34,213 nt of DNA. Origin: Limnohabitans sp. Rim8 (lineage in GTDB: Bacteria > Pseudomonadota > Gammaproteobacteria > Burkholderiales > Burkholderiaceae_C). Shown piece by piece: positions 347 to 14,167 of the stretch. The position numbers were made by a program, and so were the translations under genes. Under the pieces are notes generated by a model. That model did not search any database. It had not been told where the DNA came from and was given only the letters and a program-made list of their open reading frames with translations. Location of the stretch: assembly GCA_945897465.1 (NCBI GenBank), contig CAMDFK010000028.1, positions 1 to 34,213 on the forward strand, given 5' to 3'. Each line of letters starts with the position of its first letter. Within the stretch, counting starts at the first letter, position 1.

Positions 347-1702
347 ATGAGTCCTCAAGAGATGAAAACGCCCCGTGCCTGGACGGTGTCCGCGCTGTGC
401 CGTGCTGTGGCCGATAGCCTGGATGCCCAGTTCAACCCGGTCAGTGTGCGTGGTGAGATTTCTGGGTTTTCACGCGCCGCAAGTGGGCATTGTTATTTCT
501 CCATCAAGGATTACACGGGCCAGATCCGCTGCGCCATGTTTCGCCGAGCCGCCAGTTTGATCGATTTTGCCCCGCGTGATGGCGAATTGGTCGAGGTGCG
601 TGGTCGTTTGGGCGTGTACGAAGCCCGGGGCGATCTGCAGCTGATTGTTGAATCCATGGAGCGTGCAGGGCAGGGCGCGCTGTTTGAGCAGTTTTTGCGC
701 CTCAAGGCCAAGCTCGAAGCCGAGGGCCTGTTCGATGCCGCCCACAAACGCGCTGTGCCCGCCCAGCCCCGTGCCATTGGGGTGGTCACGTCTTTGGGCG
801 CTGCTGCTTGGCACGATGTGGTGACCGCTTTGCAGCGGCGCGTGCCGCACATTCCGGTGCTGATGGCCCCGGCCTTGGTGCAGGGCGCTGGCGCTGCGGC
901 CACACTGGCGCAAGCATTGCAAAACATCTATGCCCTCACGGCCGAAGACAACCCGCTGTGTCCACCCGTGGATGTGATTTTGCTGGTGCGTGGGGGGGGC
1001 TCGATGGAAGACCTGTGGTCGTTCAACGATGAAAACCTGGCCCGCTTGATCGCGCAAAGTCCGGTGCCGCTGATTTGCGGCGTGGGCCACGAGACGGATT
1101 TCACCATCGCCGATTTTGTGGCTGACGTGCGTGCCCCGACGCCCACGGCGGCGGCCGAGATGGCCGCAACCGACCGGGGTGTGGGCCTCGAAGCCCTGTC
1201 GGTGCTGGAGCAACGCCTGAGCCGGGGCTTGATTCGCCAGCAAGACCGACAGGCACAGCGTTTGGACGCGTTGGCGGCGCGATGGGGGGGGGGCTTGGTC
1301 CGTCAACAAGAGCGCCAGAGTCAGCGGCTGAGCACGGTGTCGGCCCGGCTGGGGCGACCACAAGCTGTGCTGGGGCAGCACAGCCAGTGGCTGGACCGCT
1401 TGGCCAGTCGTTTGCGGACGGGCATGCAAAGTCAATTGGTCGGCCAAGGCCACCAGTTGGAGCGCTTGAACGATCGTTTGGCTTTCAACCGGGCTCAGCA
1501 AGTGCCGCAACGCGCCCAGCGCCTAGAGCGGGCCGCTTTGCGTTTGTCGTCGGTGGACCCGCGCCAGATGCTTGAGCGCGGTTATGCATGGCTCAGCGAT
1601 GAGCGCGGCCAGGCTTTGACCCGCGCTGCCCAGTTTCAGCCGCACCAGGTGGTGCGGGCGACGCTGGCAGATGGGGATGTGCCCTTGACGGTTACTTCTT
1701 GA
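347..1702 (+). CDS. xseA: Exodeoxyribonuclease VII large subunit
   Basis: Catalytic subunit of exonuclease VII, which degrades single-stranded DNA in both directions in the cytoplasm together with the small subunit XseB (not in this window). The 451-aa product has the N-terminal OB-fold (about residues 10-105, containing GEISGFSRAASGHCYFSIKD), then the family catalytic core with GVVTSLGAAAWHDV, LLVRGGGSMEDLW and GVGHETDFTIADFVAD. A long coiled-coil region follows, rich in Gln, Arg and Leu, in which a segment of the LxRGLIRQQDRQAQRL type is repeated about 25 residues later. The start at 347 is chosen because the family N-terminus begins there; ATG 362 is an alternative and an in-frame ATG at 242 is less likely. 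A run of ten G (1284-1293) lies in the coiled-coil part. Confidence 0.93.
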   Translation: MSPQEMKTPRAWTVSALCRAVADSLDAQFNPVSVRGEISGFSRAASGHCYFSIKDYTGQIRCAMFRRAASLIDFAPRDGELVEVRGRLGVYEARGDLQLIVESMERAGQGALFEQFLRLKAKLEAEGLFDAAHKRAVPAQPRAIGVVTSLGAAAWHDVVTALQRRVPHIPVLMAPALVQGAGAAATLAQALQNIYALTAEDNPLCPPVDVILLVRGGGSMEDLWSFNDENLARLIAQSPVPLICGVGHETDFTIADFVADVRAPTPTAAAEMAATDRGVGLEALSVLEQRLSRGLIRQQDRQAQRLDALAARWGGGLVRQQERQSQRLSTVSARLGRPQAVLGQHSQWLDRLASRLRTGMQSQLVGQGHQLERLNDRLAFNRAQQVPQRAQRLERAALRLSSVDPRQMLERGYAWLSDERGQALTRAAQFQPHQVVRATLADGDVPLTVTS

Positions 1703-1762: not shown

Positions 1763-1838
1763 GCCGTGATGGGCTGGGGCCTGGGCACCTCATGAGGGAG
1801 TACCCAAAATCGGTGCCCAAGCCCCAGCCCATCACGGC
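1763..1838 (+). repeat. 76-nt palindromic element, copy A
   Basis: Two 27-nt arms (1763-1789 and 1812-1838) pair with a single mismatch and enclose a 22-nt asymmetric loop (1790-1811) that starts TCATGAGGGAG and ends CCCAAAATC. The loop is the exact reverse complement of the loop in copy B at 2729-2750, and the inner stem sequence is shared, so both are copies of one element. It begins 60 nt after the xseA stop codon. No T-tract follows the stem, so it is not a standard intrinsic terminator. It could be a REP/MITE-like non-autonomous repeat or a 3'-UTR structure. Confidence 0.9.
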
Positions 1839-1912
1839 GGTGGACAGTGTGGGCTATGACTGTGATGGGCCTTGTCGACCCAAAAAAGGTACTTGGGCAG
1901 TGACCTGTCACT

Positions 1913-1941
1913 GAAAAGGGCGATCGCCTAGCCCCTAAAAT
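1913..1941 (+). promoter_or_regulatory. Candidate sodB promoter
   Basis: TAAAAT at 1936-1941 is a plausible -10 box about 44 nt before the sodB start. The -35 is weak (GAAAAG near 1913-1918, 17-nt spacer). Just upstream is a perfect inverted repeat CAGTGAC-CT-GTCACTG at 1898-1913, and a 10-nt palindrome GGCGATCGCC sits in the spacer at 1919-1928; either could bind a regulator. The prediction rests only on motif inspection. Confidence 0.35.
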
Positions 1942-1984
1942 GCATGAGTTAACCTTCAACCCGCAACAACAAAAGGACATCCTC

Positions 1985-2566
1985 ATGGAACATACCTTGC
2001 CCGCACTGCCGTACGCGATTGACGCTTTGGCTCCCCATTACAGCCAGGAAACCTTGGAGTTCCACCACGGCAAGCACCACAACGCTTATGTTGTGAACCT
2101 GAACAACCTGCAAAAAGGCACCGAATTCGAGAGCATGTCCCTCGAAGAGATCATCCAAAAGTCCAGCGGCGGTGTGTACAACAACTCAGCCCAAATCTGG
2201 AACCACACCTTCTTCTGGAACTGCATGAAGCCCAACGGCGGTGGCGAGCCCACAGGCGAATTGGCCACAGCCATCAACGCCAAGTTCGGCAGCTACGCCG
2301 CTTTCAAAGAAGCCTTCGTCAAGAGCGCTGTCGGCAACTTCGGCTCCGGCTGGACATGGTTGGTCAAGAAAGCCGACGGCTCGGTCGACATCGTCAACAT
2401 GGGCGCCGCGGGCACCCCCCTGACCACAGGCGACACCGCTTTGTTGACTGTGGATGTCTGGGAACACGCCTACTACATCGACTATCGCAATATGCGTCCC
2501 AAGTTCGTTGAGACCTTCCTCGACAAGCTGGTGAACTGGTCTTTTGCCGAGAAGAACTTCGGTTGA
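1985..2566 (+). CDS. sodB: Superoxide dismutase [Fe]
   Basis: Cytoplasmic iron superoxide dismutase, converting superoxide to hydrogen peroxide and oxygen. The 193-aa product is the normal family length. Metal ligands are visible at His27, His74, Asp157 and His161 (in [18 protein letters not shown] and [13 protein letters not shown]). Gln70 just before the second ligand motif (SAQIWNH) is the residue typical of Fe rather than Mn enzymes. The start at 1985 gives the family N-terminus [11 protein letters not shown]; an upstream in-frame ATG at 1940 would add 15 unrelated residues. The gene is alone, has its own terminator at 2586-2611, and is bracketed by the two palindromic elements. No iron-responsive site was recognised. 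Confidence 0.96.
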
Positions 2567-2585
2567 TCGACGTTTTTCCCAAGTC

Positions 2586-2611
2586 AAAAAGCCCGCTGAT
2601 GCGGGCTTTTT
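2586..2611 (+). terminator. Rho-independent terminator of sodB
   Basis: The stem AAAAAGCCCGC / GCGGGCTTTTT with a TGAT loop is followed by further T-rich sequence, beginning 19 nt after the sodB stop. The A-tract on the left side means it could also stop transcripts arriving from the opposite strand, such as the SDR gene downstream. Confidence 0.93.
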
Positions 2612-2701
2612 GCTTTTTGTTCCGCAAGTGAAGGTGACCCGAGGGGCACAGGTTCAACCAGAGCCAACAGGCTGCTGGAATGACCTTCAATCGACCATTA
2701 A

Positions 2702-2777
2702 GCTGAGCATGGGCTGGGGCCGGGCACCGATTTTGGGTACTCCCTCATGAGGTGCCCGGCCCCAGCCCATGCTCAGC
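2702..2777 (-). repeat. 76-nt palindromic element, copy B
   Basis: Two perfectly complementary 27-nt arms (2702-2728 and 2751-2777) enclose a 22-nt loop (2729-2750) that is the exact reverse complement of the loop of copy A. Total length is 76 nt, as in copy A. The outermost stem differs from copy A (GCTGAGCAT against GCCGTGAT) but is still fully paired within the copy. On the minus strand it starts 23 nt after the SDR stop codon, so it sits behind that gene in the same orientation as copy A sits behind xseA. No T-tract follows. Confidence 0.92.
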
Positions 2778-2800: not shown

Positions 2801-3562
2801 TCAGCGAATCATCATCCCTCCATCGGCCACAATGGTCTGCCCCGTCACATACTGCCCAGCAGGACTCGCCAAAAACACCGCAATACCGCCAATGTCGTCC
2901 GGCTCACCCATGCGGCGCAGCGGCGTTTCGCTGTTGTACTTGGCGCTCATCACCGGGTCCTCGTGCAGGGCCTTGGCAAAGTCGGTCTTGATCAGGCCAG
3001 GCGCGATGCAATTCACGCGGATGTTGTCCGGGCCCCATTCCACCGCCAAGTTGCGCGCCAGTTGCATGTCGGCCGCCTTGGAAATGTTGTAGGCCCCGAT
3101 GATGGCCGAGCCGTGCAGGCCGCCAATCGACGACACGATCACGATGGCGCCGTCCTTCTTGGCTTTCATGTCGGGATAGACCATGTTGCACAACCAGGTG
3201 TTGGACAACACGTTGTTGCGCATCACTTTGTCAAACACCTCGTCGCTCATGCCGGTGGTGGGGCCGTAATAGGGGTTAGTGGCCGCATTACAGACCAAGA
3301 TGTCGATCGGGCCCCAAGTCTCACGGGTCTGCGAGATCAGGTTTTGCAGCTGCTCCTTGTTGGAGATGCTGGCGGCCATCGCCATGGCCTCGCCGCCTGC
3401 TGCCTGAATCTCTTTGACAACCACTTCACAGGCGTCCAGCTTGCGGCTGGACACGACGACTCTGGCGCCTTGCCTGGCCAACTGGTGCGCAATCGATTGG
3501 CCAATGCCCCGGCTGGAGCCAGTGACGACGGCGACTTTGCCTTTGAGATTGAACAGCGACAT
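2801..3562 (-). CDS. SDR-family NAD(P)-dependent oxidoreductase
   Basis: Classical short-chain dehydrogenase/reductase of 253 aa. The nucleotide-binding motif TGSSRGIG is at residues 14-21, NAA at about 92-94, and the catalytic tetrad is Asn117, Ser145, Tyr158 and Lys162 (YNISK). A PG motif follows (IAPGLIKTDF), and the C-terminus has the usual VTGQTIVADGG. Substrate cannot be read from sequence; the closest general resemblance is to FabG-like and DHRS4-like dehydrogenases. It is divergent from the flavoprotein gene starting at 3703, with about 140 bp between them for both promoters. The palindromic element B lies just behind its stop codon. Confidence 0.9.
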   Translation of the reverse strand: MSLFNLKGKVAVVTGSSRGIGQSIAHQLARQGARVVVSSRKLDACEVVVKEIQAAGGEAMAMAASISNKEQLQNLISQTRETWGPIDILVCNAATNPYYGPTTGMSDEVFDKVMRNNVLSNTWLCNMVYPDMKAKKDGAIVIVSSIGGLHGSAIIGAYNISKAADMQLARNLAVEWGPDNIRVNCIAPGLIKTDFAKALHEDPVMSAKYNSETPLRRMGEPDDIGGIAVFLASPAGQYVTGQTIVADGGMMIR

Positions 3563-13911: not shown

Positions 13912-13965
13912 GGCAGTCCTTTGGATGGAGGTGACCTTGACCAGAACCCGGCGTGAACGGACAAG

Positions 13966-14080
13966 GGCTGCCCAGGCGAACGGCTGAACACCTGGCCCAG
14001 CATGAAAAATGGCAGGTCAGGCTGTGCGCTTCCCAGTGGTTCGGCAGTGACTCGTTTCACCACGCTCCACGTCAGAGTGC
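13966..14080 (-). promoter_or_regulatory. ZTP (pfl) riboswitch in the glyA leader
   Basis: Read on the minus strand, the leader contains the conserved pieces of the pfl/ZTP motif in order: GACGTGGAGCGTGGTGAAAC, then GAGTCACTGCCGAACC, ACTGGGAAGCGC, a variable linker with its own stem, and finally CCGTTCGCCTGGGCAGCC. The 3' CGCCTGGGCA and the GGGAAGCG pieces are the most characteristic. The family binds ZTP/AICAR-type purine intermediates and turns on folate and glycine genes such as glyA. About 55 nt separate it from the glyA ATG with no clear intrinsic terminator, so control of translation is more likely. A small stem CTGTTTT/AAAACAG (14082-14101) lies immediately 5' of it. Confidence 0.82.
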
Positions 14081-14167
14081 TCTGTTTTGTTGAAAAAACA
14101 GGCTCCTATCGCCAGTTGCGCACCCTCTGAGTGTAGCCCAGCCTGCTCCGCTTGCAGGGCCAGCCGT

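Follow-up and report, generated by a model that had tools for sequence, protein, structure and literature searches.

REPIN-like hairpins with free stems and a conserved internal loop around sodB, inside uvrA and elsewhere in Limnohabitans and its family

The window (the whole stretch of DNA that was analysed, 34,213 nt) is part of the genome of Limnohabitans sp. Rim8 (G000; 3.02 Mb in 48 contigs). Two long hairpins in it enclose the superoxide dismutase gene sodB. The features of this region are listed below; bit scores are those of R1, the covariance model of the hairpin described further on.

347..1702, plus strand: xseA, exonuclease VII large subunit (PF02601, 4.8e-93), upstream of element 1
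1763..1838, minus strand: hairpin element 1, 27-nt arms and a 22-nt core at 1790-1811 (R1 92.1 bits at 1762-1839)
1790..1811, minus strand: core of element 1, minus-strand reading GATTTT / GGG-TACT-CCC / TCATGA
1985..2566, plus strand: sodB, Fe/Mn superoxide dismutase (PF02777, PF00081), between the two divergent hairpins
2585..2612, plus strand: terminator-like stem-loop of the ordinary type with a T-run, 3' of sodB
2702..2777, plus strand: hairpin element 2, perfect 27-bp stem and a 22-nt core (R1 97.8 bits at 2701-2778)
2729..2750, plus strand: core of element 2, GATTTTGGGTACTCCCTCATGA
2801..3562, minus strand: short-chain dehydrogenase gene (PF13561), convergent with sodB, downstream of element 2

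Element 1 sits between xseA and sodB, and element 2 between the terminator-like stem of sodB and the short-chain dehydrogenase gene. The pair is in divergent order, 861 bp apart by model ends, and a similarly wide pair is found around another gene in G012. As the earlier note described, both elements are palindromes of 27 + 22 + 27 nt, with one mismatched pair in the arms of element 1 as DNA (96%), which are fully paired as minus-strand RNA. The 22-nt loops, TCATGAGGGAGTACCCAAAATC at 1790-1811 and GATTTTGGGTACTCCCTCATGA at 2729-2750, are indeed exact reverse complements of each other, and the inner 42 nt of the two elements (1777-1818 and 2722-2763) are 95% complementary. The outermost arms differ between the elements (GCCGTGATGGGC vs GCTGAGCATGGGC), yet pair within each of them. 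The stems score 27 and 23 (match +1, mismatch -3), far above random expectation and thus not by chance: the next best stem in the window, the sodB terminator at 2585-2612, scores 12, and the best stem in each of ten first-order random windows scores 9 to 11. Folding z-scores range from -10.7 to -12.6 as RNA and from -10.6 to -12.5 as DNA, with none of 200 shuffles folding as well for any of the four strands, and as RNA the hairpins reach -64 to -73 kcal/mol. Element 2 thus has a rival as candidate terminator of sodB, namely the ordinary terminator-like stem 3' of the gene.

No hairpin in the window has an Rfam match at gathering score. At E values of up to 10 there are 66 matches, all below gathering scores, and those on the hairpins are mostly of the miRNA type. 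A known Rfam RNA was rejected on these grounds, which agrees with the earlier note, where no named family was recognised. Elsewhere in the window, Rfam finds only a tRNA and a ZMP/ZTP riboswitch (13963-14129, minus strand; 40 bits, gathering score 39).

Sequence searches recover little of the family to which the pair belongs. BLAST with 1.2 kb around the pair finds one further place in G000, which holds two hairpins with a similar core and different stems, and a 16-nt stretch of the core with two mismatches allowed matches the window pair alone. The covariance model R1 was built from 52 of 54 copies extracted from the genus, leaving out two with arms that do not match (L021:166-243 and L034:6026-6103); one inner pair is misplaced in the model itself, while the genus covariation count given below uses the right pairing. 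R1 gives 20 matches in G000 (the three weakest at 36–49 bits), which correspond to 16 distinct places after merging of opposite-strand matches, and it has matches in 57 of 60 Limnohabitans genomes. The remaining three (G067, G071 and G076) have no hairpin, also when more candidates were scored in a laxer search. In the host's GTDB family, 43 of the 250 genomes have matches, and 29 of 126 genera are represented; genera other than Limnohabitans are under-counted because R1 was built from genus copies. We take this family to be the Burkholderiaceae, formerly Comamonadaceae, and C. taiwanensis, which is mentioned below, to be a Cupriavidus of the wider Burkholderiaceae. All copy numbers are lower bounds, since scoring was limited to a subset of the first-look candidates (150 of 1553 for G000, 79 per genome in the genus and 19 in the GTDB family), with stricter candidate filters for searches above 40 genomes. 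BLAST with one copy matched 21 of 36 genus genomes and none of 24 others, whereas the covariance model matched all 36 of the same genus genomes. With the stem sequence free, sequence searches miss most copies. The suggestion that the window pair belongs to a repeat family whose copies are scattered and keep the loop is thus borne out within the genus and beyond it.

The structure of the unit is evident from two alignments. Covariation in the genus alignment (52 rows) is 0.597, compared to 0.158 when shuffled and at most 0.133 when slid, and both sides have changed in 26 of 32 pairs. The cross-genus alignment (A4; 23 rows, 11 genera) is made up of 22 copies of 78 nt, taken from 38 distinct ones, and the window copy. 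It has 95.1% of its cells paired and a covariation of 1.001 (0.203 shuffled); both sides have changed in 27 of 28 outer pairs and in two of four inner pairs, and the bare count of such pairs (29) is equalled in 9 of 500 shuffles. GATTT, most of GGTAC.CC, and ATGAG are invariant in all 23 rows. GATTT and ATGAG are also kept in 37 of the 38 distinct copies, which come from loci of 20 other genera (L221 has ATGAA), a count that leans towards core-keeping copies as R1 scores the core, while the length and sequence of the mini-hairpin between them vary. The constant part is therefore an internal loop, 5'-C GATTT N...N' YATGA G-3', around a covarying mini-stem. Of the earlier claim that a conserved loop is single-stranded in the folded form, the conservation holds, but the core is structured. 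On the sense strand, the sequence of the internal loop could allow G.A, A.G and U.U pairs. The outer stem is mostly 24–31 bp long, the core 20–30 nt, and the entire hairpin about 70–90 nt. In the cross-genus alignment, no stem column is invariant except the loop-closing G51, and the conserved R and L boxes of attC sites are absent. Inspection of alignments A1 and A4 and of the window copies reveals no conserved base at the hairpin feet and no GTAG. Families of small palindromic repeats are, in most cases, defined by a stem whose sequence is conserved. In the present one, the stem varies freely and the structured internal loop alone is constant. The copies provide natural variants with which to test which feature of a folded hairpin is read by an HUH transposase, or by a host protein.

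Neighbouring hairpins follow a doublet rule. Among 36 pairs of neighbours at most 300 bp apart in 11 genomes (four of one set of seven, six with matches of nine, and G000; same-place opposite-strand matches dropped), 32 are in the order minus–plus, three are plus–plus, one is minus–minus and none is plus–minus. The spacer in the minus–plus pairs within this distance is 42–192 bp long. When 83 loci, chosen from 12 genomes because all of them held R1 matches, were scanned by text search, 81 clusters were obtained, of which 45 are minus–plus doublets, 21 single minus and 15 single plus hairpins, with no other arrangement; this finder missed many copies of G006 and G031 that have a longer core (GAACGATTT...). 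The divergent inverted doublet is the arrangement of REPINs. In G160, 15 related doublets could be aligned that have unrelated flanks and stems that differ by ~20–30% by eye yet remain paired. The spacer of the G160 doublets (L238–L251) has an inverted repeat of its own, GGTAGCGCGCTACCGGTAGT ... ACTACCGGTAGCGCGCTACC, with variants. An island in G001 (L098:6830-12800) carries four similar direct doublets that alternate with unrelated gene modules: a beta-lactamase-fold gene with two others, a TacA1–GNAT pair and a photolyase-like gene. The island adjoins genes that read by eye as serS and tRNA-Ser, and its beta-lactamase-fold module recurs with doublets, reversed, beside other genes in G080 (L100:5825-9188).

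The genomic positions of the hairpins are diverse. The 81 clusters lie between co-directional (31), convergent (21) or divergent (12) genes, within ORFs (13, ten of which are uvrA) or at edges (4), as judged from ORFs called by a simple script rather than a gene caller; the text scan called L094 co-directional, and a longer ORF places its doublet inside uvrA. The scattered copies were expected in the earlier note to be intergenic, which is true of many but not of those inside uvrA. The distance from a hairpin to the end of an ORF is often about 100 nt or less. Compared to hairpin-free neighbouring ORF pairs, those with hairpins show an enrichment of the convergent class at odds of 1.7 (p = 0.08), and the divergent class gives p = 0.62. 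Gene orientation thus shows no significant preference, and a role as terminator or promoter element is not clearly supported. In DNA similarity searches, they have two weak partial matches to plasmids and none to phages, so an origin from either was rejected on this measure, although such searches are insensitive because the stem is free. The 40 most widespread groups of neighbouring proteins, read by eye, contain no recurrent transposase gene.

The sodB locus is a recurrent site. One or more hairpins were detected by text search at 26 of the 30 sodB loci that were fetched. Among the matches listed, the stems at these sites carry compensating changes between species and hairpin orientation differs between species; at the upstream site, again among the matches listed, G033 has an inverted core on a stem that hardly differs from that of G018 (L142, L156), which is what a flip of the entire palindrome or recombination between its arms would produce. 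At the same sodB sites (among the matches listed) and uvrA sites, several species have lost the hairpins or carry decayed ones.

Doublets also lie in the coding region of uvrA. The UvrA ORF of G000 has 2156 residues with four Walker A motifs and contains a doublet in frame. Hairpins occupy three uvrA sites in G025, G077 and G033, and G252, which belongs to another genus, carries three doublets in frame, so that as many as three sites of uvrA are occupied and two genera are represented; all these inserts are in frame and contain no stop codon. The sites are polymorphic for the insertion. At the first (16 of 30 loci could be placed), seven rows have the doublet, four the second hairpin only, and five none, and the third site is empty in G063 and G030. 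At the empty site, the flanks are too diverged for the ends to be placed, and a target-site duplication was not resolved. The minus hairpins are mostly translated as (S/A)S(Y/H/W/C)...KS(S/A/V) and the plus hairpins mostly as DDF...(H/Y)EE (DDL...HEE and ADL...HEV in G147), and the single uvrA hairpin of G006 reads ASYSDKKSL.

Between six of the seven genomes with a full doublet at the first site (L177, which contains a run of N, was excluded), the two hairpins are 98.8% and 96.3% identical, the coding flanks 89.4% and 92.7%, and the spacer between the hairpins 60.8%. The difference persists at third codon positions, which are 97.6% and 93.3% identical in the hairpins vs 73.9% and 81.1% in the flanking coding DNA. 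As the spacer of the doublet diverges, the inserted peptide itself is loosely constrained, and the constraint is read as acting on the nucleic acid. REP insertions have been reported in uvrA of O. terrae and Thioalkalivibrio and in other repair genes (in the available part of PMC3733652), which makes uvrA a recurrent host gene for such elements. The present inserts are a further case of a repair gene with in-frame palindromic inserts, in which the insert is constrained at the nucleotide level. In several Limnohabitans genomes, the coding region of uvrA also contains a palindrome that resembles the terminal inverted repeats described below, AAATTGGGGTCAGATCCC(C/A)ATTT (L094:1905 and the same place elsewhere), about 0.87 kb before the hairpin doublet.

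A gene for a Y1 transposase (PF01797), the check proposed in the earlier note, is present in 58 of 60 genus genomes. The protein of G000 scores 79.6 against NF047646 (REP-associated tyrosine transposase; cut-off 80). Its presence does not follow that of the hairpins. Y1 genes are found in all three hairpin-free Limnohabitans genomes and, outside the genus, in 22 of the 25 hairpin-positive genomes examined (out of 39) and in 17 of the 20 hairpin-negative ones examined (out of 207), with no Y1 match in the hairpin-bearing G197, G263 and G336. Only one of 30 Y1 loci has a hairpin match, at 19.5 bits, unlike a RAYT gene flanked by its own repeat. The likeness to REP/RAYT systems seen in the earlier note thus stands for the inverted-doublet layout, while a direct link to a RAYT is less well supported. 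The Y1 genes have flanking repeats of another kind: among 29 loci (L109–L137), repeats of the GGGGTC(A/T)GA type are present on both sides in 22 and on one side in four. By their sequence, they fit the motif GGGGWSAS published for the terminal inverted repeats (TIRs) of TIRYT, a group of Y1 transposases (PMC3733652; subclass 2.1 in PMC6006769, both as far as available).

In two genomes, G006 and G031, repeats of this type also surround the hairpins. There, inward-facing GGGGTCAG repeats enclose 26 of 43 hairpins, two others have the repeat on one side and 15 have none. The Y1 gene is flanked by this repeat or one almost identical to it in all seven genomes inspected (G001, G006, G012, G020, G031, G066 and G080). 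Around the window hairpins and at the fetched doublets of G001 and G080, there is no repeat of the GGGGTCAG type. A link between hairpins and Y1 via shared TIRs appears only in some Limnohabitans genomes. The TIR-bounded form may have arisen by capture of the hairpin by a TIRYT miniature element, or the reverse. In G031, some GGGGTCAG inverted pairs are only ~70 bp apart with no hairpin match between them (L288:3898-3971, L295:4614-4686 and L295:11055-11128) and represent a second, shorter miniature element.

Several known systems resemble the hairpins in part. Judging from the available text of PMC3116915, REPINs share with them the inverted pair with a variable spacer, the prevalence of doublets, compensatory changes, singlets, decayed copies and the small, non-autonomous size. 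Unlike the short REP sequences of that account, the present hairpins are ~70–90 nt long, have a free stem with a conserved internal loop instead of a conserved 16-mer, show no GTAG and do not flank the Y1 gene. The REP class has a conserved stem, and here both partners vary in 27 of 28 outer pairs. CGTC REPs and Rickettsia palindromic elements (PMC3733652 and PMC10969869, available in part) are similar in that a single dimer type predominates, that no dedicated transposase has been found for them, and that they insert in frame, with uvrA and other repair genes as recurrent sites. The CGTC REPs differ in their 8–9 bp stem, 4–5 nt loop and unpaired CGTC end, compared to mostly 24–31 bp and an internal loop here. 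In its available portion, the main text of PMC3733652 contains no match for Burkholder, Comamonad, Polaromonas, Rhodoferax or Acidovorax, and CGTC-1 repeats are described there in C. taiwanensis. TIRYT elements, as far as their published description was available, are similar in that GGGGTCAG repeats flank the Y1 gene and enclose the 26 hairpins of G006 and G031, and differ in that these repeats are absent around both the window hairpins and the naked doublets and that the published motif does not include the hairpin core. The TnpA-REP protein of E. coli needs the unpaired zone of its folded, bulged REP (available text of PMC8266576). A stem with an unpaired zone that is read by an HUH protein could serve as a model for the internal loop, with protein binding being putative here. 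Because the GTAG, CGTC and conserved-stem hallmarks were not found, the hairpins are not counted as members of the known REP classes. Searches of the open-licence PMC literature turned up no description of the repeat, either for Limnohabitans or for Comamonadaceae. The hairpins look like a new, apparently undescribed family of REPIN-like elements, with a mobilising enzyme that we infer.

The window hairpins are probably units of a REPIN-like, non-autonomous palindromic family that a loop-reading Y1/HUH enzyme would serve in trans. The folded single strand would be the recognised form, and the internal loop would mark it for recognition, comparable to the bulge of the REPs in E. coli; the doublets would be spread in trans by a Y1/HUH transposase. 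Where the sites are old, as at sodB and uvrA, selection on structure, exerted by the element or by the host, would now maintain the copies. Against this explanation, the naked doublets are tied to no enzyme, Y1 presence does not track the hairpins (three of 60 genus genomes have Y1 but no hairpin), 15 of the 43 hairpins of G006 and G031 have no GGGGTCAG-type repeat on either side, and no target-site duplication was resolved. A purely selfish element also does not predict strong conservation at fixed loci. A rival reading is a host-domesticated element, the internal loop of which, as cruciform DNA or RNA, would bind a cellular protein, with copies kept for local roles at genes such as sodB, uvrA and recQ and mobility being secondary or past. 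The core that is invariant in 23 copies from 11 genera and present in 37 of 38 copies from 20 other genera, the uvrA hairpins at 98.8% and 96.3% identity vs 61% in the spacer and 89–93% in the coding flanks, and the hairpins at 26 of 30 sodB loci with compensating stem changes (among the matches listed) are all consistent with domestication. We nevertheless consider it rather unlikely as the main explanation: copies are lost or decayed at the same sites in several species, gene orientation preference is not significant (convergent p = 0.08), positions and copy number vary between genera with none in three of 60 genus genomes, and R1, by scoring the core, biases the matches to core-keeping copies.

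The high RNA stability (-64 to -73 kcal/mol), the ORF ends often within about 100 nt and the possible G.A/A.G and U.U loop pairs of the sense strand would suit a transcribed cis-regulatory RNA or a bidirectional terminator or insulator. This is improbable given that both orientations are used, that the doublets are symmetrical on both strands, that 12 of 81 clusters lie between divergent genes and 13 inside ORFs, and that no Rfam family matches at gathering score. A terminator as the main role was rejected, as sodB already has an ordinary terminator-like stem and orientation shows no significant preference. The G001 doublets that alternate with unrelated modules, together with a three-gene module bounded by doublets in both G001 and G080, bring to mind attC-like recombination sites that bound gene cassettes; a single island was examined, the stems contain no conserved box, and homologous recombination between similar direct repeats gives the same picture, so that this reading is very improbable. 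Least probable of all, and barely credible, are neutral palindromes perfected by template switching with a loop that is not recognised. Such a process would account for free stem sequence, near-perfect pairing and the core found in either orientation on near-identical stems upstream of sodB (among the matches listed), but would not keep GATTT and ATGAG across genera or slow the substitution of uvrA stems. Returning to the REPIN-like family, a bolder proposal, which we hold with more doubt than belief, is that the CGATTT/YATGAG loop might be the address label of a nucleic-acid-binding protein of the Burkholderiaceae, in which case formerly mobile doublets would now form a selectively kept set of structure-coded sites across the family that tolerate any stem, even inside uvrA, and are recognised by their structure and not their sequence.

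Two further observations concern individual loci. On contig C4 of G000, three hairpins lie in a row (L004:1202-1561) between two co-directional genes, which to us look like boxB and boxA of benzoyl-CoA oxidation. The record CALQKH020000002.1 (L044), titled Akkermansia muciniphila, bears the Limnohabitans pattern, and its title is probably wrong.
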